This document shows positions 5,946 to 40,410 of a stretch of DNA of 64,000 bases, piece after piece. The stretch's first letter is position 1, and each line of letters opens with the position of its first letter. The stretch comes from a virus, in IMG/VR virus record IMGVR_UViG_3300025141_011788, positions 1-64,000 of that record, one strand, 5' to 3'. The notes under the pieces were generated by a model. It searched no databases, had not been told where the DNA came from, and worked only from the letters and a program-made list of their open reading frames with translations. Made by a program: the position numbers and the translations under genes.

Positions 5946-6134
5946 TTATTGATTGAAGGCTGGGACACGGGGGCGGAAGGCACCCTCCTTGTTGTCCTGA
6001 AGGGCGTCAAGGGCATCGATCATACCTTGAAGGCATTCGTTGGCTTGGCCGCCGGCGGTGTTGTTGATGGCTGCCGACTGGAGGCTACGCAGGTGACTAC
6101 GGGCCATGGCGAAGGCTGATTCGAGATTGTTCAT
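5946..6134 (-). CDS. hypothetical helical protein
   Basis: 62 residues, mainly helical (MNNLESAFAMARSHLRSLQS; ECLQGMIDALDALQ). GGGGAGAAACAAG precedes the ATG and the promoter at 6174-6201 drives it. No family recognised. Confidence 0.6.
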   Translation of the reverse strand: MNNLESAFAMARSHLRSLQSAAINNTAGGQANECLQGMIDALDALQDNKEGAFRPRVPAFNQ

Positions 6135-6314: not shown

Positions 6315-6527
6315 TTACTGTTGCTTGTTATCAGCGAAGGCGTATAGCTCGTTGAATTCCTCGTTGAGTGCCTGCTCAAGACCACGACGTCGGTCGGCTT
6401 CGTCGGCGAGACGCTTAAGCTGCTGTTGGCTTTCGCCAATGTTGGCGGCAATGAGGTATAAGAAGGTGATCGAGAGAATGTTCATTACAAGGCTGTGAAA
6501 TGAAGGGTCGGTAATAAAATTCATCAT
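6315..6527 (-). CDS. small membrane-anchored coiled-coil protein
   Basis: 70 residues. A hydrophobic segment at ~14-30 (VMNILSITFLYLIAANI) is followed by a Gln/Leu/Glu-rich helix. Two adjacent ATGs follow AAGGAGCCAAACA, so the start is 6527 or 6524. A strong terminator follows. Possibly lysis- or envelope-related by architecture only. Confidence 0.6.
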   Translation of the reverse strand: MMNFITDPSFHSLVMNILSITFLYLIAANIGESQQQLKRLADEADRRRGLEQALNEEFNELYAFADNKQQ

Positions 6528-6578
6528 TGTTTGGCTCCTTAGCCGGTTGTTGTTTGTTTGTTGTTAGTTAGGGTTGGT

Positions 6579-6818: not shown

Positions 6819-8036
6819 TTATGGCCGAATGGCGATTACTCGTTCGTTGGTTTTAAAGTAGGGACGTTCGGCACAAGCCTGGGTGGTGATCCACATCCGC
6901 TGAGCTTTGGTTGCTTTGGGCTTGGGAGCCTCCATGTCAGTGAGCATGATCAGACCGTCAAAGGATTGACCGTTAGTGTAGTCAGCGACACAATTGAAGT
7001 CCGTACCACCGCACGACACACGCTCAGTAGCCTGACGCTTGCCCTTCTTCCAAGTATAGACCTTATCCTCTACAACACGAGTGTCAAAAGGAATGACCGT
7101 AAACTCTGCTAACTTAGCAAGGCTATTTAGCTCACTAAAGAACATCGCAAGCATCTCATCGTTTACACTTCCAGACTGATCAATAGCGATAGCAATCTTA
7201 GCCGTACGCTTGATCTTTTTACCGGGATGGATGTAAGCATAACGCTTGTTGATCCGCTTAACACTCGAACGCTTGTGGGCTCGTTGAGAGGTCTTAACGA
7301 AGTACCGTAGCACCTTCCGCCAATCGACGACAGTCTTAAGACGCTCCAAGATATCCCGCTGGACTTGCTTGGGGACGGAACCCCAGCCTTGGCCGCTAGC
7401 TGCTGATTCAGTTGCCGCCTCTTTTAGATCTTGCTTGAGACGTTCAGCCGCCATAGCTTTGGCATCATCGCTTACGTCGCCGGCCTCAGACCAGCCGTCG
7501 TGATCATCAAAGGAATTCTCAGGCAACTCGCTGCCAGGACCATCTGACCCGCAGGAACCGCCGTCGCCCTCTTGGGGCTCGCCTTCGCCGTCCTTGGACT
7601 TCTCACGCTCTTCTTGATCCTCCTGGATCATCGCAAGGTAGGCTTCGAAGCTCAACCCGGCCGGATAGTCCTTAAAGGGACCGACACCAGGCATACAAGC
7701 CATCTCCGGCAATTGACCCCGAAGGTGACTGTTGATCGCCAGGTCCATAGCGATGTTTTGGATCTTAAAATCCACGCCGATGATACGTCGAGTCGTGACG
7801 TGCTCAAATACTAAGTGGTAGAACTCGTGCTTAAGAACTCCAAGTCGCTGCTCATCCGGCAGGCTCTCAAAGAATTCTGGGTTGTACGCCATCTCAAATC
7901 GACCGTCCTCGGTAATGCGAACGCCGGCCGTTGGGACAGAGCGGTTTTCCACCTTGTTGATCTTGCGAGACAGGGAGGCAAAGAAAGGCTCGTTCAGTAG
8001 AAGGCGAGCCATATGTTGATTGAGATCAAAAGACAT
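6819..8036 (-). CDS. DUF2201-type putative metallopeptidase with VWA domain
   Basis: 405 residues. The start is set at 8036 by GGAGAG before ATG TCT, not the upstream ATG. HEFYH (70-74) is an HExxH zinc site in the DUF2201 N-terminal domain. An acidic linker (~145-195) leads to a VWA-like domain with MIDAS motif DQSGS (~286-290) and a downstream TD. By family it pairs with a MoxR ATPase, which is the next upstream gene but one (8244-9326). Such pairs act as chaperone-like complexes inserting metals or remodelling proteins; the target here is unknown. The stop is followed directly by TCTCGGGACA. Confidence 0.8.
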   Translation of the reverse strand: MSFDLNQHMARLLLNEPFFASLSRKINKVENRSVPTAGVRITEDGRFEMAYNPEFFESLPDEQRLGVLKHEFYHLVFEHVTTRRIIGVDFKIQNIAMDLAINSHLRGQLPEMACMPGVGPFKDYPAGLSFEAYLAMIQEDQEEREKSKDGEGEPQEGDGGSCGSDGPGSELPENSFDDHDGWSEAGDVSDDAKAMAAERLKQDLKEAATESAASGQGWGSVPKQVQRDILERLKTVVDWRKVLRYFVKTSQRAHKRSSVKRINKRYAYIHPGKKIKRTAKIAIAIDQSGSVNDEMLAMFFSELNSLAKLAEFTVIPFDTRVVEDKVYTWKKGKRQATERVSCGGTDFNCVADYTNGQSFDGLIMLTDMEAPKPKATKAQRMWITTQACAERPYFKTNERVIAIRP

Positions 8037-8243: not shown

Positions 8244-9326
8244 TTAGACCTCCTCTTTCTTCCTCTTGTCCGCTGCGAGGATCTTGTTCAGGTAGTCCCC
8301 GATGGAAACCCCGTTAACCTTGCAGGAGTGAAACTTAACCAGAAGCTCGGCTTTACCCTTCGAAGCTAGGGACATGATGACTTGCATCAGCTTAAGACCC
8401 GCTTCGCTAGGAAGGATGGTCATATAGGTAGCAAGGTTTTCCCACTGGCTGTCAGTGGTTTCCGAGGCGAGTACTTCGGCAGCATCAAGCTTTTCGATAA
8501 GAGCACAATGCTCGTTGAGACCGAAACCCTTCAACTGCTTAAGCTTAGAGCCGTCGAGCAACTGATCGACAGTGACCTGACGTTCGTAGTTCTTGGCGAA
8601 GTCGTTGAAGGTAACAGCAGCTTCGAAGCCGACAAAGGATTGGGCCAGAGTAAACACTGCTGGGCTGGCTTCCTCAAGAAGGTTCGAAGCGACCAATACA
8701 TCGTTCAGGCGATGCCAGGACCGACGGCTCGGATACACTTTGTTGGGCTCAAACTCACCCTTGTGCTCAAGATGGCTACGATTCTGGTTGATGAAGTCCC
8801 AAACAAGACCATCGATGTTTTCCTTGCCCCAGGACAACCAGTCCTCAACAGTAGGCTCGACATCGAACACGGTCCAACGATCGAGTTCGGCAGGATCCAT
8901 TTCCCCAACTTGGTACTGCTCACCGTGCTCGCCACCATTGATGGCTGCAACGATAACCGTATCAGGGTGAAGGTCGTGACCATTCAGCTTCCGACTGTCG
9001 GTCAATTCAAACAGACCCTGGCGTACTTCGAGCACCGCACGGTCAACCTCGTCCAGGAAAAGCAACTTGGGCTCATCGCAACAGGCCTTGAAGAACTCCG
9101 GGGGATTGAAGATCGTAGCACCGTTCTCGATGGTAGGCAGACCAATAAGGTCACCCTCGGTCATCTGGCTGGCACGACGCTCGACTACATCTAAACCCAA
9201 AGTGATGGCCATCTGGTATACCACCTGGGACTTGCCAACCCCGTGGCGACCACGAAGTAGGATGGGCAGGCGAGCACCGCTTACATGGGGAGCGACGTTA
9301 ACAAAGGTCTTGAAATCTACAGCCAT
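8244..9326 (-). CDS. MoxR-type AAA+ ATPase
   Basis: 360 residues. Walker A GRHGVGKS (26-33), Walker B LLFLDEVDR (~88-95), and sensor region VIVAAINGGEHGEQYQVGEMDPAELDRW (arginine finger/sensor). This matches AAA_5/MoxR ATPases. Cognate partners are VWA proteins, and one lies immediately downstream (6819-8036), separated only by a 50-codon membrane gene and a promoter. Likely an ATP-driven remodelling machine. SD AAGGAGAAAAGAG; promoter 9369-9396. Confidence 0.9.
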   Translation of the reverse strand: MAVDFKTFVNVAPHVSGARLPILLRGRHGVGKSQVVYQMAITLGLDVVERRASQMTEGDLIGLPTIENGATIFNPPEFFKACCDEPKLLFLDEVDRAVLEVRQGLFELTDSRKLNGHDLHPDTVIVAAINGGEHGEQYQVGEMDPAELDRWTVFDVEPTVEDWLSWGKENIDGLVWDFINQNRSHLEHKGEFEPNKVYPSRRSWHRLNDVLVASNLLEEASPAVFTLAQSFVGFEAAVTFNDFAKNYERQVTVDQLLDGSKLKQLKGFGLNEHCALIEKLDAAEVLASETTDSQWENLATYMTILPSEAGLKLMQVIMSLASKGKAELLVKFHSCKVNGVSIGDYLNKILAADKRKKEEV

Positions 9327-14166: not shown

Positions 14167-14436
14167 TTACTTGTTTGTTTCTTCGTTGTCCCGAACTATC
14201 AGGTCAACATCCGCACTGTCTGTTTCCAACTCAATCCATACTCTTGCTCCGCAACTTAATGGTTTATGAGGGCTGTAAACTACACGGGCTAGCTCGACAC
14301 CTTCTTTAGTCTTTATTACCGCTTCATGAGCATAACAGTTTTCTTTGTAGGTTTTAACTGTTAATACTGGCTCGTCAGTTCCGTGCTTTGTGTTTCGCTT
14401 GATAACGTGTTGATTGACGTGGATTATCTTTTTCAT
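14167..14436 (-). CDS. small beta protein at the end of the nuclease operon
   Basis: 89 residues. IIHVNQHVIKRNTKHG, EPVLTVKTYKENCYAHEAVI, SPHKPLSCGARVWIE match a small conserved bacterial protein I associate with nuclease/defence islands, from memory only. It begins 11 bases after the DUF262-HNH stop, so it is probably the last gene of that operon. Its C-terminus VRDNEETNK is encoded by the CTCGGGA-type motif. Confidence 0.6.
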   Translation of the reverse strand: MKKIIHVNQHVIKRNTKHGTDEPVLTVKTYKENCYAHEAVIKTKEGVELARVVYSPHKPLSCGARVWIELETDSADVDLIVRDNEETNK

Positions 14437-14446
14437 TTTGATCAGC

Positions 14447-16057
14447 CTAATCGACGAACCCTGGGAGCACAGACTGCTGTGGACACGATTCTATTGGAAG
14501 AGCGGCACGGTCATCTTCTGTCACGAGGGACTCTTGCTGTTCCTGCTCACGGGAACGCTCAAATTCTTCAGGTTCCATTGTTCTCTTAGGTTTGTGAGTT
14601 TCCGTGGATAGCACTTGCAGGTTCTCGACCTCATTGCTGCCCCCGAGGCTCAGAGGATAATTGTGATCGACATCAGTCTCACGCTTCTTTATCATCACTG
14701 GTGTGACCTCTTCATCAACCTTGAGTTGACCTAAGTGAATGAGATCCTCTTGTTGCTTATGGGTTAACTGCTTGCGCTTGTGTTTTACAACCACCTCTCC
14801 GGCATCATTCTTCCATTCAATTGGGTTGTTTTTAGTCTTCTCCAAGATGTATGTATTTATTGTTTCCCATCTAAACTTGACCGCATTTGGTCGCCAGACA
14901 TCATCTGTAGCAGCTTTGTAGTCTGTCTCTACTGGGACTGGTAGAGTTTTAAGTTTTGCCTTGTCTCCCTTACGGTCAGCAATTGCCCAGGCTTCGAAGT
15001 CTTTGGGGTCCATCATGATGGTCCTTAGTCGATTATCCATTTGAGTAAACACGTCTCTGAGGATATAATCTTCATCCTTAATTTGGAGTTTGTTTTTATA
15101 AATGGATACAGCAGTTAGGAACATCTCCATGATATCTGTGTTAGAGATATTAATATATTCCCCATCCTTCTCGTGAGTCTCCCACAATTTCATGAAGTAG
15201 TTGTCATAAAAATCATCCCACTTCTTGATGTAATCTGGGTCATTGCCCTTTTTGCCTTTATAGAATGGTGTGAGCATCTTATCGTTAGTAGCTCGGGTTT
15301 TAATAAGTGCGCTATCCACAAGTAACGACAGAAAAAGACGAGAATAGCCTGCAAAGTACTCGTGCATCTTGTGGCGTTTGTACCAATCACTAGATACATT
15401 GATTTTTGCATCTGCTGCAACCCACGCTTTAGTACGGATGTTATTACAGATATCTGTTCCATACCCATTGCGAATTTCGGCTTTTCGGGGTGGCTTTCCT
15501 GAATTAATTGCGTTAAAAAGACCTCGATAACTGGCGAGGCTGATTTTATCATACACAAATACTGGAATCTCTGTGTTTGCAATGTAAGTTTGCATTGCGT
15601 GACTCAATTGAGAAAAAGTAACGCTATTCTGTCCAGTAGCACCAAAAATATCTGGATGTTGCATCCCGAACTGCTCAGATGGGGTAAAAGCATACCGATC
15701 TGCAAGAAAGTCCAACAAGCAATCCAGCGCACGGTTTTGACCGTCTACTGTAGAGTAAGGTTGTAATTGATATTCGTCAACTAGTTCTTGAAAGTATTCC
15801 TTGTCTTTTGGGGTCAGCCCTTTAACGCCAAGTACACGTCCGATATCGACCAGAACAATACTTGCCTGATGGAATCCTAAGAGGATACTCTCAATAAAGC
15901 TGTTTCGGTCTTCATCATCCCAGCACTTCTCTCGCTGGATCTTTCTATCAATAAAGAACTCATCCACAAAAGGGACTTCTCCGTTCGGATCCCTGTCTCG
16001 GACCAGTTGAGCGATCGTAACACCGAGGGTGTAATAACTAATTCTTGGTTTAAACAT
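14447..16057 (-). CDS. DUF262 (ParB-like) / HNH endonuclease
   Basis: 536 residues. The DUF262 domain shows IQREKCWDDEDRNSFIESIL and the nucleotide-binding DGQNR at ~102. The C-terminus carries an HNH motif, DVDHNYPLSLGGSNEVENLQ (~462), with a following Lys. This architecture is shared by GmrSD-, SspE- and BrxU-type DNA-modification-dependent nucleases. It overlaps the upstream methyltransferase by 8 bases, so it is cotranslated with nuclease and methyltransferase. It may attack competing phage DNA, degrade host DNA, or act on modified DNA. Confidence 0.8.
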   Translation of the reverse strand: MFKPRISYYTLGVTIAQLVRDRDPNGEVPFVDEFFIDRKIQREKCWDDEDRNSFIESILLGFHQASIVLVDIGRVLGVKGLTPKDKEYFQELVDEYQLQPYSTVDGQNRALDCLLDFLADRYAFTPSEQFGMQHPDIFGATGQNSVTFSQLSHAMQTYIANTEIPVFVYDKISLASYRGLFNAINSGKPPRKAEIRNGYGTDICNNIRTKAWVAADAKINVSSDWYKRHKMHEYFAGYSRLFLSLLVDSALIKTRATNDKMLTPFYKGKKGNDPDYIKKWDDFYDNYFMKLWETHEKDGEYINISNTDIMEMFLTAVSIYKNKLQIKDEDYILRDVFTQMDNRLRTIMMDPKDFEAWAIADRKGDKAKLKTLPVPVETDYKAATDDVWRPNAVKFRWETINTYILEKTKNNPIEWKNDAGEVVVKHKRKQLTHKQQEDLIHLGQLKVDEEVTPVMIKKRETDVDHNYPLSLGGSNEVENLQVLSTETHKPKRTMEPEEFERSREQEQQESLVTEDDRAALPIESCPQQSVLPGFVD

Positions 16058-17042
16058 ATTTTAATTCTCCTGTTGATGTCTTATTATTAAATTTATTCGC
16101 CATGATCGAAATGGCATCTGGGTTTTTTTCAAACAATAGAGCCTTGCGGCCAAGATTCCGAGCGGCAACACCTGTGGTTCCCGCACCCGCCATCGGGTCC
16201 AGAACAATATCACCTAGGTCTGTCGTCATCTCAATGATCCTCTCGACGAGCTTTACTGGCTTCTGAGTGGGGTACTTCCGCTCTTGATCACCCATGGCAA
16301 TCGAGTGAATATCATCCCACAAGTTTGTTGCAGGCTTCCCCTTTGACTCGTGCTTGTATATCTTCCTGTACAGTTTAGAGCCATTTTTAGATGGGATATG
16401 TACCCGGTCTTCTGCAATGAGGTCTTCTAAACCCTCTCTTGAGACCCGCCAGCCAAACGGTGCTGTGTAGTCTACACCCTCTATCGACATTTTATAATAT
16501 CGATCATCTCTTCCCGTCTTCTGGGTTGCGGTGTAGGTCAGATGGCCCAGGGCATAGTTTCCCCGGCTATCCTTGTTCTTGTATGAGTTCTCTGCATAAT
16601 AGGCATCTAACGGTTGATAAACTAAGTTATACTTTGGCTTTTTCTTGCCTGAGCACCAGAAGATAACATCAGTTACTGCCCCTAGTTTATTCTTCACATT
16701 GTTCTTTGACCGACATCTGTTCCAGAAGATGGGTTGAACCTTTTTGAAGTGTTTCTGACAAAGAATGTGAGGGATCAACATCTCCTCAGCAGAGATATGA
16801 AAGAAAAGTGACCCATCAGGTTTAAGAATACGCCGTGCCTCTTCAAGAATAGGCTCAACGAGGTCGATGTACTCATTATCAGAACTGAAAACATCACTGA
16901 AGCCGATTGCGTCCTCCTCGGTGTTCAGACGGAAATCGTTTCCCGTGTTGAACGGAGGGTCAAAATAAACAGTGGCGATCGAGTGACCAGGGACCTCTTT
17001 TATAAGTTCCCTGGCGTCACCCAGAAGATATCGGATATCCAT
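16050..17042 (-). CDS. DNA methyltransferase, beta class (N6A/N4C)
   Basis: 330 residues. DPPFN at 28-32 is the catalytic motif IV; DPMAGAGTTG (~282-291) is the SAM-binding motif I. The IV-before-I order defines the beta class (PF01555). A long central target-recognition region (~115-235) separates them. It sits between a PD-(D/E)XK nuclease and the DUF262-HNH gene, in the operon driven from 17950-17978, and presumably protects phage DNA from one or both. Confidence 0.9.
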   Translation of the reverse strand: MDIRYLLGDARELIKEVPGHSIATVYFDPPFNTGNDFRLNTEEDAIGFSDVFSSDNEYIDLVEPILEEARRILKPDGSLFFHISAEEMLIPHILCQKHFKKVQPIFWNRCRSKNNVKNKLGAVTDVIFWCSGKKKPKYNLVYQPLDAYYAENSYKNKDSRGNYALGHLTYTATQKTGRDDRYYKMSIEGVDYTAPFGWRVSREGLEDLIAEDRVHIPSKNGSKLYRKIYKHESKGKPATNLWDDIHSIAMGDQERKYPTQKPVKLVERIIEMTTDLGDIVLDPMAGAGTTGVAARNLGRKALLFEKNPDAISIMANKFNNKTSTGELKYV

Positions 17043-17068: not shown

Positions 17069-17908
17069 TTATAACACAAATGTTTGCGCATCTTTAATCT
17101 GTTCTAACATCTTCTCTGGTTCGTCCTGTTGAATTTTGATCGACACTACTGAGCTATTGTTTCTGGACCATTTTTTTCCGGCAAGATGTGCGCCCATGCC
17201 GTTATTAAGGGTAACACGCAGGCGTAAATAGGTATCGTGAATACTGCCGTTGGGCAGCTTACACCAAATGCGCTGAGATGCCGAACGATTCTTCTTCAAG
17301 AAAAAGGAAACGTTTGGATTGTTCAGCAATCCAACCAGGGGAAGTTCCCTATTGACTTCAAACCACACCGATTTCTTTTCCGGATAATGAACAGCTACAT
17401 AGAAATCACTTTCCTGGGTGTATTTCTCAAACGCCTGAGATAAAATGACCCTGAGCATTGCCGGAGTGATATCATTCAAACACCCGTTGGCGATCCTGTT
17501 ATATTCAGCCCGATAGGGCGCAACGAGAGATTTAACCTCTTTCTCGTTTTCGGATCTGGTAATTACAGAGCCCCGATGGATTCCCTTTGTTGACCTGTAG
17601 TACTCACGCACTGGGCTCAGGGCGGTGTCTAAAGAGGGTAAACTCGCAGCAACCCTAGCAAGAGTGGTGTTTACCCAGTCAAAAGTCCCCCCGTTGCCCG
17701 AGCGAGTCTTCACTGATACCCCTAGCTTTTGACCCGTTTGACGAGCAATGCGGATGTCTGCCTTGTTCGCTGTGCCCCCGAGGTGGCAAGCAGATTTCAC
17801 CCCGCCCAGGTACGTCTGTAGTTTCGGGTTGGCTCCGATTTGGCTAAGAATAATTTTCTCGCCAGCAATGCCGTTGTAGTGGCCGATCCCATTAGTCTGA
17901 AAAGGCAT
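17069..17908 (-). CDS. probable type II restriction endonuclease (PD-(D/E)XK)
   Basis: 279 residues. The start is ATG at 17908 (AGGAGGAGAGGG four bases upstream); an earlier in-frame ATG lies inside the leader hairpin. D51 (KADIRI) and S65-V-K67 (GVSVKTR) fit a PD-(D/E)XK core with the acidic residue replaced. No named specificity recognised. Position ahead of a methyltransferase in one operon is the main support. Nuclease first, methyltransferase second is a risky order unless translation is controlled, which the leader hairpin (17925-17941) could do. Confidence 0.65.
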   Translation of the reverse strand: MPFQTNGIGHYNGIAGEKIILSQIGANPKLQTYLGGVKSACHLGGTANKADIRIARQTGQKLGVSVKTRSGNGGTFDWVNTTLARVAASLPSLDTALSPVREYYRSTKGIHRGSVITRSENEKEVKSLVAPYRAEYNRIANGCLNDITPAMLRVILSQAFEKYTQESDFYVAVHYPEKKSVWFEVNRELPLVGLLNNPNVSFFLKKNRSASQRIWCKLPNGSIHDTYLRLRVTLNNGMGAHLAGKKWSRNNSSVVSIKIQQDEPEKMLEQIKDAQTFVL

Positions 17909-17924
17909 TATTCCCTCTCCTCCT

Positions 17925-17941
17925 GTCGGGTTCATCCCGAC
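17925..17941 (-). promoter_or_regulatory. perfect hairpin overlapping the leader before the SD
   Basis: GTCGGGATGAACCCGAC on the minus strand: 6-bp stem, 5-base loop, directly followed by AGGAGGAG. Candidate translational operator or operator DNA for the nuclease operon. Confidence 0.6.
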
Positions 17942-17949
17942 CATAACTT

Positions 17950-17978
17950 AATATATCAAAGGTTCTCACACCCGTCAA
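17950..17978 (-). promoter_or_regulatory. sigma70-like promoter of nuclease operon 1
   Basis: TTGACG (17973-17978), 17 bases, TATATT (17950-17955). Confidence 0.75.
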
Positions 17979-18037
17979 GTTTTTATTTTAGTGTTTCCCG
18001 AACTTTAATCGATCGAGTTGAAATCACGACGGACTCA

Positions 18038-18805
18038 TCAGCAATGCGATGCCCCGAGGGTTTTAACAATTGCGGAGGGCTTAAACTTAAACTGTAGGTT
18101 AGTAGGGGAGCCTGTACCGCCCTTCCTCTGAACAGTGATGAAGGCGCCGAGAGATAAAGAACCCCTAGGGGAGATGGAAACGTTTCCAGCTCCAAGATAA
18201 AACCCCACAACTTTGTCCATAGGGATGAGATAATACCCTGGCTTCTCACCGTTGGTGATCTTGGTGATGATCATATAATCTGGCCTTTGTTTATGTGAGC
18301 CGCAAAAGATATGATCTACGATCTTTCCTGAGTTGTCTCGAAAGAAGCCTAAGGTGTCCTCTACATACCTCTCTTTAATTTCCCGTAAGGTCGCTCGCTT
18401 ACGACTCCTGGTGTGGTTGACATCTTTTGCAAGAACATCAGGATTATCACAAGGTAACACCGAGCCAGTGAACACTTCTAGACACTCTCGAACAGTATCG
18501 GTGAAGCCAAATGATTTATGATAGCTGTCAACTGAAGACCTTGCAACATGGTTATAGTCAGCACCAGGCATATATTTCTTTGCAGACACCAACCTACTCT
18601 CGCCCTTGATAATAAGCTCAATGTCTGCCTTTACTGTACCTGGAATTTTAGTGGCTGTAACGTCACCAGCTAGCAGTTCGGACGGCTCGAAACCCATCTG
18701 GCGTAGCATTTCTTGAGCCTCAGGGTGGTCTTCAAAACTCTTGAACATCTCGACAAGACGATATTCGTTATCGTAGCCAGATTTTGCGATCTCAGATCCG
18801 TTCAT
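18038..18805 (-). CDS. HinP1I-like type II restriction endonuclease
   Basis: 255 residues. The N-terminal AKSGYDNEYRLVEMFKSF...EAQEMLRQMG and the C-terminal GNVSISPRGSLSLGAFITVQ-RKGG region align by eye with R.HinP1I (remembered sequence). The core is D61 (KADIEL) and S74-A-K76 (VSAKKY), where HinP1I has D62 and Q81-V-K83. HinP1I cuts GCGC; specificity here is not known, and its cognate methyltransferase type differs. It starts 5 bases after the methyltransferase stop, a compact M-R pair. Confidence 0.75.
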   Translation of the reverse strand: MNGSEIAKSGYDNEYRLVEMFKSFEDHPEAQEMLRQMGFEPSELLAGDVTATKIPGTVKADIELIIKGESRLVSAKKYMPGADYNHVARSSVDSYHKSFGFTDTVRECLEVFTGSVLPCDNPDVLAKDVNHTRSRKRATLREIKERYVEDTLGFFRDNSGKIVDHIFCGSHKQRPDYMIITKITNGEKPGYYLIPMDKVVGFYLGAGNVSISPRGSLSLGAFITVQRKGGTGSPTNLQFKFKPSAIVKTLGASHC

Positions 18806-18809
18806 GACC

Positions 18810-19583
18810 TCATTCCCCTGTTCTTTTCAATCGATCAACCGATTCTTCAAAATAAACCTCATCAAGCTCAAAGCCGATATAGCGTCTATTAAGCTTTTTT
18901 GCAACGGCTGGTGTCGTGCCGCTTCCACAAAAAGGGTCAAGGACTAGATCGCCAGGGTTTGAACTTGCCTTGATAATTCGCTCAAGCACCTCCTCCGGCA
19001 TCTGACAGGGGTGACTCTTAACCCTCTCCTTGAATGTGCCACAGAGTCTCGACATCTGCCAGGTATCATCTGGGACTTTTCCCTTGCTGTTCGCTCGCTT
19101 GTCGTTATATTTCAGCTGTCTCGCAGAGGGCACCCTGATTTCATCAACATTGAAAGTAAAGTCCTTGGGGTTTTTTGTGAAATAGTGGATGTGAGTGTGA
19201 GTTCGGCTAAACTTCTTTCTACAATTTTGACCGAAGGTATAGTACCAGATAATCCAGTTTCTAAAACTTAAGCCACCGTCCTTCAAGATAATATTTAGTT
19301 CAGCAGCATATTCATCGCCAATAGCAACATACATCGACCCGTTAGGTTTCAATACCCGCACACACTCACTCACCCACTTACTTGACCATTCTTTGTAATC
19401 CTCGTAAGGCTTATCATCCTTGTAGGAGTTGTACGAATAGCCGATGTTGAATGGCGGGTCGGCAAATACCAGATCAACACTTCCAGAATCCAAGTGCTTT
19501 AAAAGCTCAAGGCTGTCTCCAAGGTAGATGTTGTCTTTCTTAACTAGACCTGGGAAGGTTGATCGCAGTCTGCCCCTGTTCAT
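18810..19583 (-). CDS. DNA methyltransferase, beta class (N6A/N4C)
   Basis: 257 residues. ADPPFN (41-46) and DPFCGSGTTP (~216-225) give motif IV before motif I. Overall similar in layout to small N6-adenine methyltransferases such as those of MboII/DpnA type. First gene after the promoter at 19622-19650, with SD AGAAGGAGAAG. It would be made before its partner nuclease, the safe order. Confidence 0.9.
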   Translation of the reverse strand: MNRGRLRSTFPGLVKKDNIYLGDSLELLKHLDSGSVDLVFADPPFNIGYSYNSYKDDKPYEDYKEWSSKWVSECVRVLKPNGSMYVAIGDEYAAELNIILKDGGLSFRNWIIWYYTFGQNCRKKFSRTHTHIHYFTKNPKDFTFNVDEIRVPSARQLKYNDKRANSKGKVPDDTWQMSRLCGTFKERVKSHPCQMPEEVLERIIKASSNPGDLVLDPFCGSGTTPAVAKKLNRRYIGFELDEVYFEESVDRLKRTGE

Positions 19584-19597
19584 CTTCTTCTCCTTCT

Positions 19598-19613
19598 GTC
19601 GGGTTCATCCGAC
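19598..19613 (-). promoter_or_regulatory. leader hairpin, one-base-shorter copy
   Basis: GTCGGATGAACCCGAC on the minus strand, between the -10 and the SD of the methyltransferase gene. One G is missing relative to 17925-17941, weakening the stem. Confidence 0.55.
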
Positions 19614-19621
19614 CATAACTT

Positions 19622-19650
19622 AATATATCAAAGGTTTCTTGATCAGTCAA
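19622..19650 (-). promoter_or_regulatory. sigma70-like promoter of M-R pair 2
   Basis: TTGACT (19645-19650), 17 bases, TATATT (19622-19627). Confidence 0.75.
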
Positions 19651-19676
19651 GTTTTTACTTTAGTGTTCCCCGAACT

Positions 19677-20024
19677 TTAATCGATCGAGTTGAAATCACG
19701 GAAGATTTGTTGAGGTTTAACCTTTTTCCACTGGATTGTTCGGTAAGGCTTCCTAGTGACCTTCGTCGAAATCAAACTCTGTTCATCCGAGACGCTAAAG
19801 ACAAACTTGCACACTTCTAGCCGTTGCTTGATGTCTTCCAGCACTTCCGGGTGGCTCTCCTCCCTCCCCGCAAACACTAGCATCATGCAGTAGCGATTAA
19901 ACTCGCTCATTTCCTTCGTCCGTACCTCTATCTGTTGACAACATTGTTGGCCTTTTATTGGGGTTGAGGTCGAGGCACAGCCGGATAGCAGGACAAGAAA
20001 GATACCAATACTGATGGCTTTCAT
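19677..20024 (-). CDS. small lipoprotein, paralogue of the next gene
   Basis: 115 residues from ATG at 20024 (GGAGTTAAGTAATAAG upstream). MKAISIGIFLVLLSGC is a lipoprotein signal with lipobox LLSGC. The mature part has CCQQIEVRTKEMSEFNRYC and LEVCKFVFSV, matching its upstream neighbour (20029-20271) in spacing of Cys and VRxxEM, so the two are tandem paralogues. An extra basic tail (~85-115) is unique here. Envelope location in a Gram-negative host; possible superinfection exclusion or lysis role is inference. Confidence 0.75.
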   Translation of the reverse strand: MKAISIGIFLVLLSGCASTSTPIKGQQCCQQIEVRTKEMSEFNRYCMMLVFAGREESHPEVLEDIKQRLEVCKFVFSVSDEQSLISTKVTRKPYRTIQWKKVKPQQIFRDFNSID

Positions 20025-20913: not shown

Positions 20914-20933
20914 CTTATCCCTTTCGCACTCTC

Positions 20934-20962
20934 ATTGTATCAAAGGTCTTTTCGTTTATCAA
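20934..20962 (-). promoter_or_regulatory. sigma70-like promoter
   Basis: TTGATA (20957-20962), 17 bases, TACAAT (20934-20939). Confidence 0.65.
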
Positions 20963-21222
20963 GTTTTATTTTCGAAGTATTTTCTCTTGGTCTCTGGGTT
21001 CTGTTTCTTCAGCCAATATTCTAATCTCAATGCCTCTCCGTGTTCCATTGGTTCGGAGTGGTTTATTAATATTGTTTGTTTTCCCCGAGTTTGTTTTACT
21101 TTGTTGTTTTGGTGGTCTTTCAGTCGTTTGGATACATCCTTAGCGATGCCGACGTGAAGTGTAATGCGGTTTGTTTTCTCGGTCGTACACTGTAAGATGT
21201 AGACAGAATAGAGGTTAGTCAC
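20959..21222 (-). CDS. GIY-YIG endonuclease domain protein
   Basis: 87 residues, starting at a GTG (21222) that overlaps the upstream gene. YSVYILQC is the GIY strand, LHVGIAKDVSKRLKDHQN the second motif with catalytic Arg, and HGEALRLEYWLKKQNPETKRK the helix with the metal-binding Glu. This is the stand-alone YhbQ/SLX1-type fold. Could be a homing, repair or host-DNA nuclease. It sits upstream of the R-M island, adding another nuclease. Confidence 0.8.
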   Translation of the reverse strand: MTNLYSVYILQCTTEKTNRITLHVGIAKDVSKRLKDHQNNKVKQTRGKQTILINHSEPMEHGEALRLEYWLKKQNPETKRKYFENKT

Positions 21223-39014: not shown

Positions 39015-40109
39015 TTAAAACCCCATGTTATTCTTTTTTGTCGTCCCCGGAGTATTGACAATGTGAGGGCGGCTTTCAGTGTGACCGGCAGAAGTCTGTT
39101 GAATCCATCGAGCGTTGCATCGTAACTCAGCTAAAGTGCGGGCGTTACTATAACTACACCCGCTCTTTAAACCGCCAACCAAAGTGTTGACAACATCAGT
39201 AACCGAGCCCTTACAGGGGATAAAAGTCGCTACGCCTTCCGGAGAGGAGTTGCTGCCTCGCCAATCTACTTGAGCGTCTTTTGACGCCATTCCTCGGTAC
39301 TCCTTAACTCTTGTGCCGTCAGGAAGGCGGCGGACTGCACCGGGAGCTTCGGTCGTCCCGGCAAGAAGAGAGCCGCACATAACAAAATCTGCTCCGGCGG
39401 CGAGGGCTTTAACTATATCGCCGCTGTTTTTAATCCCGCCGTCAGCAATGATCTTTACGTCCCTGTCGGTGCGGGCACAATCAATAATTGTTTGGAGGCC
39501 TGGCACGCCGTGGCCCGTCTGGACTCTAGTTGAACAAATTGAACCTGACCCAATATTACAGCGAACACTGTCCGCTCCCCAATCGGATAAGTCGTTGACG
39601 CCTTCGAGGGTAGCCACGTTGCCCGCCATGAGGTGAACCTCACCGATCGGATATTTTCGTCGAAGCTTGAGAAGGGCATCCCGCATCATAATATGGTGGC
39701 CGTGAGCAACATCAACACAGATGATCGTTGCACCTGCTCGTACTGCTGCCTCTGCTCGCTCCATAAAACCTCCAGATACCCCGACTGCTGCGCCGATGTT
39801 TGGCAAGAATATACAGTTTGAAAGTAGCTTCTCGTATGCCTGCTTGATAATCGCAGCCTGCATCTCAATGGAGTTATATCGGTGGACGATCGCACATCCG
39901 CCAAGAGTTGCCATCTCCACGGCCATGTCTACGCCGCTTACCGTATCCATGGGAGACGCAATGATCGGAGTGTTGAGACGAAGGTTAGAATCCAAATCAG
40001 AAGATACATCAACCTGTCTTCGACTGGTAATCTCGCTATACTGTGGTTGAAGCAGTACGTCATCGTAAGCTATCGCTAGTGGAGCATCAAGGTCGTTTCT
40101 ATTACTCAC
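39015..40109 (-). CDS. IMP dehydrogenase / GMP reductase
   Basis: 364 residues without CBS domains. AYDDVLLQPQYSE, IIASPMDTVSG, CNIGSGSICSTRVQTGHG (active-site Cys loop), ADGGIKNSGDIVKALAAGAD. Alters purine balance: IMPDH favours GTP supply, GMPR the reverse; the sequence does not decide. Overlaps the next gene start by a few bases. Confidence 0.9.
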   Translation of the reverse strand: MSNRNDLDAPLAIAYDDVLLQPQYSEITSRRQVDVSSDLDSNLRLNTPIIASPMDTVSGVDMAVEMATLGGCAIVHRYNSIEMQAAIIKQAYEKLLSNCIFLPNIGAAVGVSGGFMERAEAAVRAGATIICVDVAHGHHIMMRDALLKLRRKYPIGEVHLMAGNVATLEGVNDLSDWGADSVRCNIGSGSICSTRVQTGHGVPGLQTIIDCARTDRDVKIIADGGIKNSGDIVKALAAGADFVMCGSLLAGTTEAPGAVRRLPDGTRVKEYRGMASKDAQVDWRGSNSSPEGVATFIPCKGSVTDVVNTLVGGLKSGCSYSNARTLAELRCNARWIQQTSAGHTESRPHIVNTPGTTKKNNMGF

Positions 40110-40410
40110 TTTGTTCCCTTTCCGGGTTGATGGTGTTGATTAATTCTTGTGTTTTAGTAGTGCAAGTGGGGCAAAACAAAGTTACCTTCTGCTCCTCTGC
40201 CTTCACTACAACTCGCCAAGACATGTGAGCCTCCCTGGTCTTTGGGAAATCTGTGGAGCAAGCTGAACAGGTTGTTGGAAGTTTATTGAACAATCCAACC
40301 TGCTCCCCTAAGTCCTTCTGTATTTTTTTTTCGATGGGATTTTTTTGGCTGGGTTTGTCTTTCTTTTTCTTGTTTCTTTTGAGTTGCTTCTTATGTTTCT
40401 TGTTGTTCAT
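40102..40410 (-). CDS. basic zinc-ribbon protein
   Basis: 102 residues. Lys-rich N-terminus (MNNKKHKKQLKRNKKKK), then CSAC and CPTC pairs ~31 residues apart, a zinc ribbon. Nucleic-acid or RNAP binding inferred. Overlaps IMPDH/GMPR by 8 bases. Confidence 0.65.
   Translation of the reverse strand: MNNKKHKKQLKRNKKKKDKPSQKNPIEKKIQKDLGEQVGLFNKLPTTCSACSTDFPKTREAHMSWRVVVKAEEQKVTLFCPTCTTKTQELINTINPEREQSE

Follow-up and report, generated by a model that had tools for sequence, protein, structure and literature searches.

Two restriction-modification operons behind repeated promoter-leader elements in a phage genome: possible cassette exchange at a common head

In the phage genome analysed here, two restriction-modification (R-M) operons follow one another, each preceded by a promoter and a hairpin leader, and this arrangement is probably best explained by a hotspot where recombination exchanges cassettes that have a promoter-leader head in common, two of them having been stacked with a copy of a gene tail trapped between them. 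More tentatively, the promoter and leader-hairpin element may be dedicated to R-M cassettes and act as a docking seam, at which unrelated modules are swapped or stacked under the same expression signals. The evidence consists of the repeats and the relic, the leader on four unrelated cassette genes, a joint at the -35 box in the relative L090, and the occurrence of one of the pairs elsewhere in the relative L003. The gain and stacking of R-M and defence-type genes by phages is seldom visible at base level, and here a scar, a head and one clean joint can be read. If the head is a seam, its sequence could serve as a query for nuclease cassettes that are still unannotated; of the four head-marked cassettes, three begin with, or have as presumed nuclease, proteins without a family-library match.

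Gene content of the locus

The window is the whole 64,000-nucleotide stretch analysed, bases 1-64000 of a 67,948-base virus record (L105 being bases 64001-67948). The genes of the locus are all on the minus strand and read leftward, in the order lipoprotein-like gene, M, R, R', M', GmrSD_N/HNH-type protein and 89-aa gene:

19677..20024, minus: lipoprotein-like gene, 115 aa, open reading frame with homologues in L004 (58%), L005 and L006; right flank of the putative hotspot and putative source of the tail
18810..19583, minus: M, DNA amino-methyltransferase, 257 aa, CcrM/YhdJ-like beta class (PF01555, E=1.1e-61; NF008572, 1.7e-56, below cut-off)
18038..18805, minus: R, HinP1I-like type II restriction endonuclease, 255 aa (PF11463 R-HINP1I, E=6.9e-18)
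17069..17908, minus: R', 279 aa, with which the second operon begins; without a family match
16050..17042, minus: M', second amino-methyltransferase, 330 aa (PF01555, 1.2e-42)
14447..16057, minus: GmrSD_N/DUF262-like protein with HNH-like C-terminus, 536 aa, overlapping M' (PF03235, 4e-4, below cut-off; weak match to the IscB HNH region)
14167..14436, minus: widely conserved 89-aa gene, found in at least 586 relatives; left flank of the putative hotspot

The M and R genes lie between the repeats at 18038-19583, as a preliminary description of this DNA had claimed, and the methyltransferase gene is intact. R aligns with the solved R.HinP1I structure 1ynm over 240 residues, nearly its full length (E=4.5e-15), and it belongs to the R.HinP1I family by its PF11463 domain and by D61 and K76, which align with R.HinP1I and which we take, from the HinP1I literature, to be the catalytic Asp and Lys; the usual glutamine of the QxK context is replaced by serine (SAK). 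As adjacent PF11463 and PF01555 genes of one operon, kept together in L003 and partly in L088 (there in the order R-M, at the contig end), the two form a putative type II R-M pair. A HinP1I-like nuclease is accompanied by an amino-methyltransferase in the window, in L003 (9258-10765) and in L088 (1-941), and by a C5-methyltransferase instead in Mycoplasmopsis and Spiroplasma. In the two plasmid-borne relatives that were examined, the partner is a Dcm-type C5-methyltransferase, as opposed to the CcrM/YhdJ-type enzyme of the window. No match to R was found in phages by tblastn, and none was confirmed among genome contigs.

GCGC is depleted here but still present (80 found, 141 expected). Other words are missing altogether from the 67,948 bases, namely CGCG (130 expected), CTCGAG (18), GTCGAC (15), GAGCTC (10) and GACNNNGTC (about 12), and absences of this kind are also seen in relatives, where G007 is without GATC (146 expected) and CGCG, G004 nearly without GCGC and GGCC, and L004 without GGCC.

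In the second operon, R' is a probable PD-(D/E)xK nuclease, judged from ADIRI...VSVK as read by eye; its AlphaFold model, made without an alignment, was unusable (pLDDT 35), and searches with R' gave no match in phages (tblastn) or in viral contigs.

The contig L004 (3300025066_000276) is collinear with the window, and the two conserved flanking genes enclose a different set of genes there. Between the end of its lipoprotein gene at 6026 and the start of its 89-aa gene at 8948, the M-R pair is absent. The interval is instead occupied by two small genes, a same-class promoter (6884-6932), the gene of a 164-aa protein of no recognised family, the hairpin leader at 7456, and a protein in two parts, the first of which weakly resembles the GmrSD-type protein of the window; a gene thus separates promoter and hairpin in L004. 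In the same interval, L004 has a promoter-bearing direct repeat of its own (6040-6093 and 6506-6559, 54 nt, 87%); its copies enclose an 88-aa gene, and the first copy includes the relic of a gene start. The occurrence of TAATCTCGG at three L004 module ends was considered as further lipoprotein-tail relics and rejected, the sequence being too short and occurring elsewhere.

In this comparison of two genomes, window and L004, variable defence genes thus lie between two conserved genes, the defining feature of a phage defence hotspot. That the locus from the lipoprotein gene to the 14167-14436 gene is a site of gene turnover is supported, because L004 carries other genes there, because M-R lies at an unrelated site in L003 (G004), and because of the repeat with its promoter, leader and gene-end relic. 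Rfam and tRNA scans gave no match, and there is therefore no tRNA-type integration site; the 14.4-21.5 kb region had no blastn match in 50,697 phage records. In three relatives, an amino-methyltransferase gene directly follows the conserved 89-aa gene (L005 8670-9377; L007 1034-1738; L009 10272-10973).

The direct repeats, the relic and the leader

The elements between and around these genes are the following:

20931..20967, minus: third, divergent promoter of the same class, overlapping the end of a GIY-YIG gene, without hairpin leader
19596..19700, minus: right repeat (true lipoprotein gene tail, promoter, hairpin leader)
19622..19650, minus: right promoter, TTGACT-N17-TATATT, with the CTTGActgaTCAAG inverted repeat over the -35 box
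19598..19613, minus: right leader hairpin, GTCGG-ATGAAC-CCGAC, upstream of the AGAAGGAG ribosome-binding site
18005..18028, minus: relic of the end of the lipoprotein gene (RDFNSID-stop), matching the true tail exactly
17923..18028, minus: left repeat (lipoprotein-tail relic, promoter, hairpin leader)
17950..17978, minus: left promoter, TTGACG-N17-TATATT
17925..17941, minus: left leader hairpin, GTCGGG-ATGAA-CCCGAC, upstream of the AGGAGG ribosome-binding site

The ungapped direct repeat (17937-18028 and 19609-19700) is 92 nt long with 90% identity and a spacing of 1672, and with the hairpin and ribosome-binding-site region it reaches about 106 nt at 91% (blast, E=6.9e-37), so that the repeats of ~107 bp, ~90% identity and 1672-base period described beforehand are real. 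Blast finds only these two copies in the 67,948-base record, and a chance origin of the repeats is excluded. Read with the genes, the order is CGTGATTTCAACTCGATCGATTAA (RDFNSID-stop), about 26 nt, promoter, hairpin and ribosome-binding site. Both copies contain a promoter of the sigma70 type and a leader hairpin that is followed at once by the ribosome-binding site; a promoter and a hairpin had been described there beforehand. The lipoprotein reading frame ends within the right copy (...PQQIFRDFNSID-stop, the L004 homologue ending ...PQQIFRDFDEID-stop), and this homology agrees with the earlier placement of the true 3' end of the gene there. In the left copy, CGTGATTTCAACTCGATCGATTAA starts 9 nt past the R stop codon and is non-coding, outside any plausible gene; it had correctly been called a relic, its length having been given one codon short, as DFNSID-stop. 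Elsewhere in the window, two 97% identical copies of a tandem repeat region with a 9-base period lie at 1-218 and 562-779.

The relic is unchanged though under no evident selection, and 32 nt of relic and flank are identical between the copies, as is nearly all of the part from the -10 box to the leader. The 92-nt core has nine mismatches, and seven of them are clustered in about 9-10 nt at the start of the -35/-10 spacer (permutation p=2.5e-5), where 7/10 bases differ between left and right. This cluster beside an intact relic indicates that the promoters are not simple copies of one another; the two promoter cores may have partly separate histories, or one multi-base change may have occurred in the spacer of one copy, ten bases being too few to decide. 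Over these same ten bases the left spacer is nearest to L004 and the right to L090 (7/10 each; left and L090, 6/10), and template switching could produce the inverted repeat CTTGActgaTCAAG in the right spacer.

The flanks of the two repeats are nearly identical, as would also be expected from a simple recent duplication. Here a single genome would have doubled the tail-promoter-leader block upstream of R'-M' and taken up M-R between the two blocks, one possible route being single-crossover integration of a one-copy fragment; the same final structure would result. The identical relic and flank and the nearly identical -10-to-leader part fit such a local duplication, which we nevertheless regard as rather unlikely, as the seven differing spacer bases next to an intact relic do not look like plain copying, unless one multi-base spacer change is allowed for.

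Hairpin leaders of this form were found at four places (left and right in the window, L090 1450 and L004 7456), in each case directly ahead of a nuclease or methyltransferase cassette gene. Over a leader of 46-47 nt, the two window hairpins fold at -10.6 and -7.8 kcal/mol (z of -1.5 and -1.8 against shuffles, a moderate difference only), and because folding is only moderately better than in shuffles, more weight is given to stem conservation: among the four leaders the stems are kept and the loops vary, with a G-U-compatible change in L090. The hairpin probably acts as a 5' mRNA stabiliser or in translation. The earlier proposal that both operons are under the same control is plausible, similar expression being likely because the -35 box, -10 box, start region and leader are common to both, although the spacers differ at 7 of 10 positions and the operator-like repeat occurs in the right copy only. 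There is no convincing terminator between R and R', and read-through into the second operon is therefore expected; terminator-like sites are at chance level. A further promoter class, AAACTTGAC-N9-ATCCGTGGTATAAA, occurs in at least four copies in the window (6205, 8091, 9400 and 10399, minus strand) and also in L004.

Common regulation, by a repressor or by leader-binding control, might in itself select for alike heads that are kept so by gene conversion, the head then not being a seam. The restriction of the hairpin leader to nuclease/methyltransferase cassettes would be in keeping with this, as would the inverted repeat over the right -35 box if it is an operator; this possible operator is absent from the left copy, however, and both the lipoprotein relic and the L090 joint would be left unexplained, which makes common regulation on its own very improbable. 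It is compatible with cassette exchange at the head, and the two are not mutually exclusive.

Heads and pairs in related genomes

The clearest evidence for exchange at the promoter comes from L090 (3300025133_005487), where a probable nuclease (185 aa, unrelated) and an amino-methyltransferase come after a whole head (1408-1480). The head follows a GIY-YIG gene whose last codons, AAA ACT TGA, are part of the -35 box, the stop codon lying inside it; in the window and L004, too, this gene has its stop codon within the -35 box of a promoter. The 100 nt upstream of AAAACTTGA are 92-93% identical to the GIY-YIG gene ends of the window and L004, as opposed to 57-64% to the R-M heads, while the 62 nt downstream are 80-82% identical to the window R-M heads, as opposed to 52-55% to the promoters located behind the GIY-YIG genes of window and L004. 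This switch in identity indicates a crossover in or beside AAAACTTGA, at the promoter, and the joint is the best evidence for the promoter as a seam, as one clear case.

When 2.9 million viral contigs were scanned for the leader, only L090, L004 and one chance coding match came up (L094, an unrelated contig, rejected because the match falls within a long coding frame), and a search with the promoter pattern returned L090 and L004 only. The head is present in only three contigs, of which two are short, and the first proteins encoded after it have no significant similarity to each other.

In the distant relative L003 (3300030419_007160, G004), M is 85% and R 62% identical to the window proteins. 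As the best shared core gene reaches 59%, the value for M indicates lateral transfer. The L003 pair is flanked by the dUTPase gene on one side and by a homologue of window 40102-40410 on the other; in the window, no R-M pair separates these two genes. The L003 pair is without repeats, promoter or leader, and its genes overlap both neighbours. The preliminary description had taken the repeats as marking the M-R pair as mobile, and this was not supported, given the L003 pair and the very different nuclease genes that stand behind the leader in L004 and L090.

Could M-R still be a mobile unit with the repeats as its ends, moved by its own or a homing-type nuclease? Its different site in L003 would agree with this, as would the nearby 87-aa GIY-YIG gene, which is 92-95% conserved between otherwise far more diverged phages (window 20959-21221, L004 4482-4745, L090 1153-1416). 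We consider it improbable, since the L003 pair shows none of the supposed ends, the GIY-YIG gene lies outside the unit, and the unit contains only M and R, with no transposase or integrase inside and no terminal inverted repeats at its ends; it is not a transposon.

Under cassette exchange at a common head, the locus between the lipoprotein gene and the 14167-14436 gene would be a hotspot for restriction and nuclease cassettes. Cassettes of this phage group would begin with a head of about 75 bp, made up of an AAAACTTGAC-N10-ACCTTTGATATA promoter followed by hairpin leader and ribosome-binding site, and recombination at the head would swap cassettes and place a new operon under an existing promoter, as seen once, in L090. 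In the window, M-R would have been stacked with R'-M'-GmrSD/HNH, presumably by a single crossover that joined the end of M-R to the last lipoprotein codons before the promoter of the other cassette, leaving the relic and letting each operon keep its own promoter and leader; the product would have the order tail-head-M-R-relic-head-R'-M'. The phage encodes RecA-like and gp32-like proteins, and its own RecA-like recombinase may have been used. The repeats may also allow M-R to be lost by recombination. A genome with exactly one repeat and no M-R pair, the outcome set beforehand as a test, was not found, nor was one with lipoprotein tail, one head and a single cassette, and the stacking step itself was not seen.

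Comparison with known systems

Phage defence hotspots, as outlined in PMC9122126, are stretches of a few kb, bounded by two conserved phage genes, in which defence genes turn over and more than one system is sometimes present. The window locus is likewise small, lies between two conserved genes and shows turnover, with two R-M sets. It differs in its common promoter-leader head and stacked-cassette scar, and it is known from sequence alone, with two fully comparable genomes.

The closest parallel to the head is found in the promoter early stem-loops (PeSL) of T4-like phages (Arbiol 2010; Comeau 2014), which, in the accounts given in PMC4503421 and PMC5931544, are units of promoter and stem-loop between gene modules that serve as a seam for module shuffling. 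The window element likewise joins a promoter and a stem-loop within a single repeated unit, its phages too having T4-like replication genes, and the head appears as a joint for module exchange in one clear case, L090. According to these accounts the PeSL stem-loop is a terminator, as opposed to the window hairpin, which is a 5' leader past the -10 box, with an AGGAGG-type sequence next and no T run; the window leader hairpins were not among the terminator-like matches. A second difference from the PeSL so described is that the window-type element occurs in few copies and is tied to R-M and nuclease cassettes. By this analogy, the head would work like a PeSL and is not itself one.
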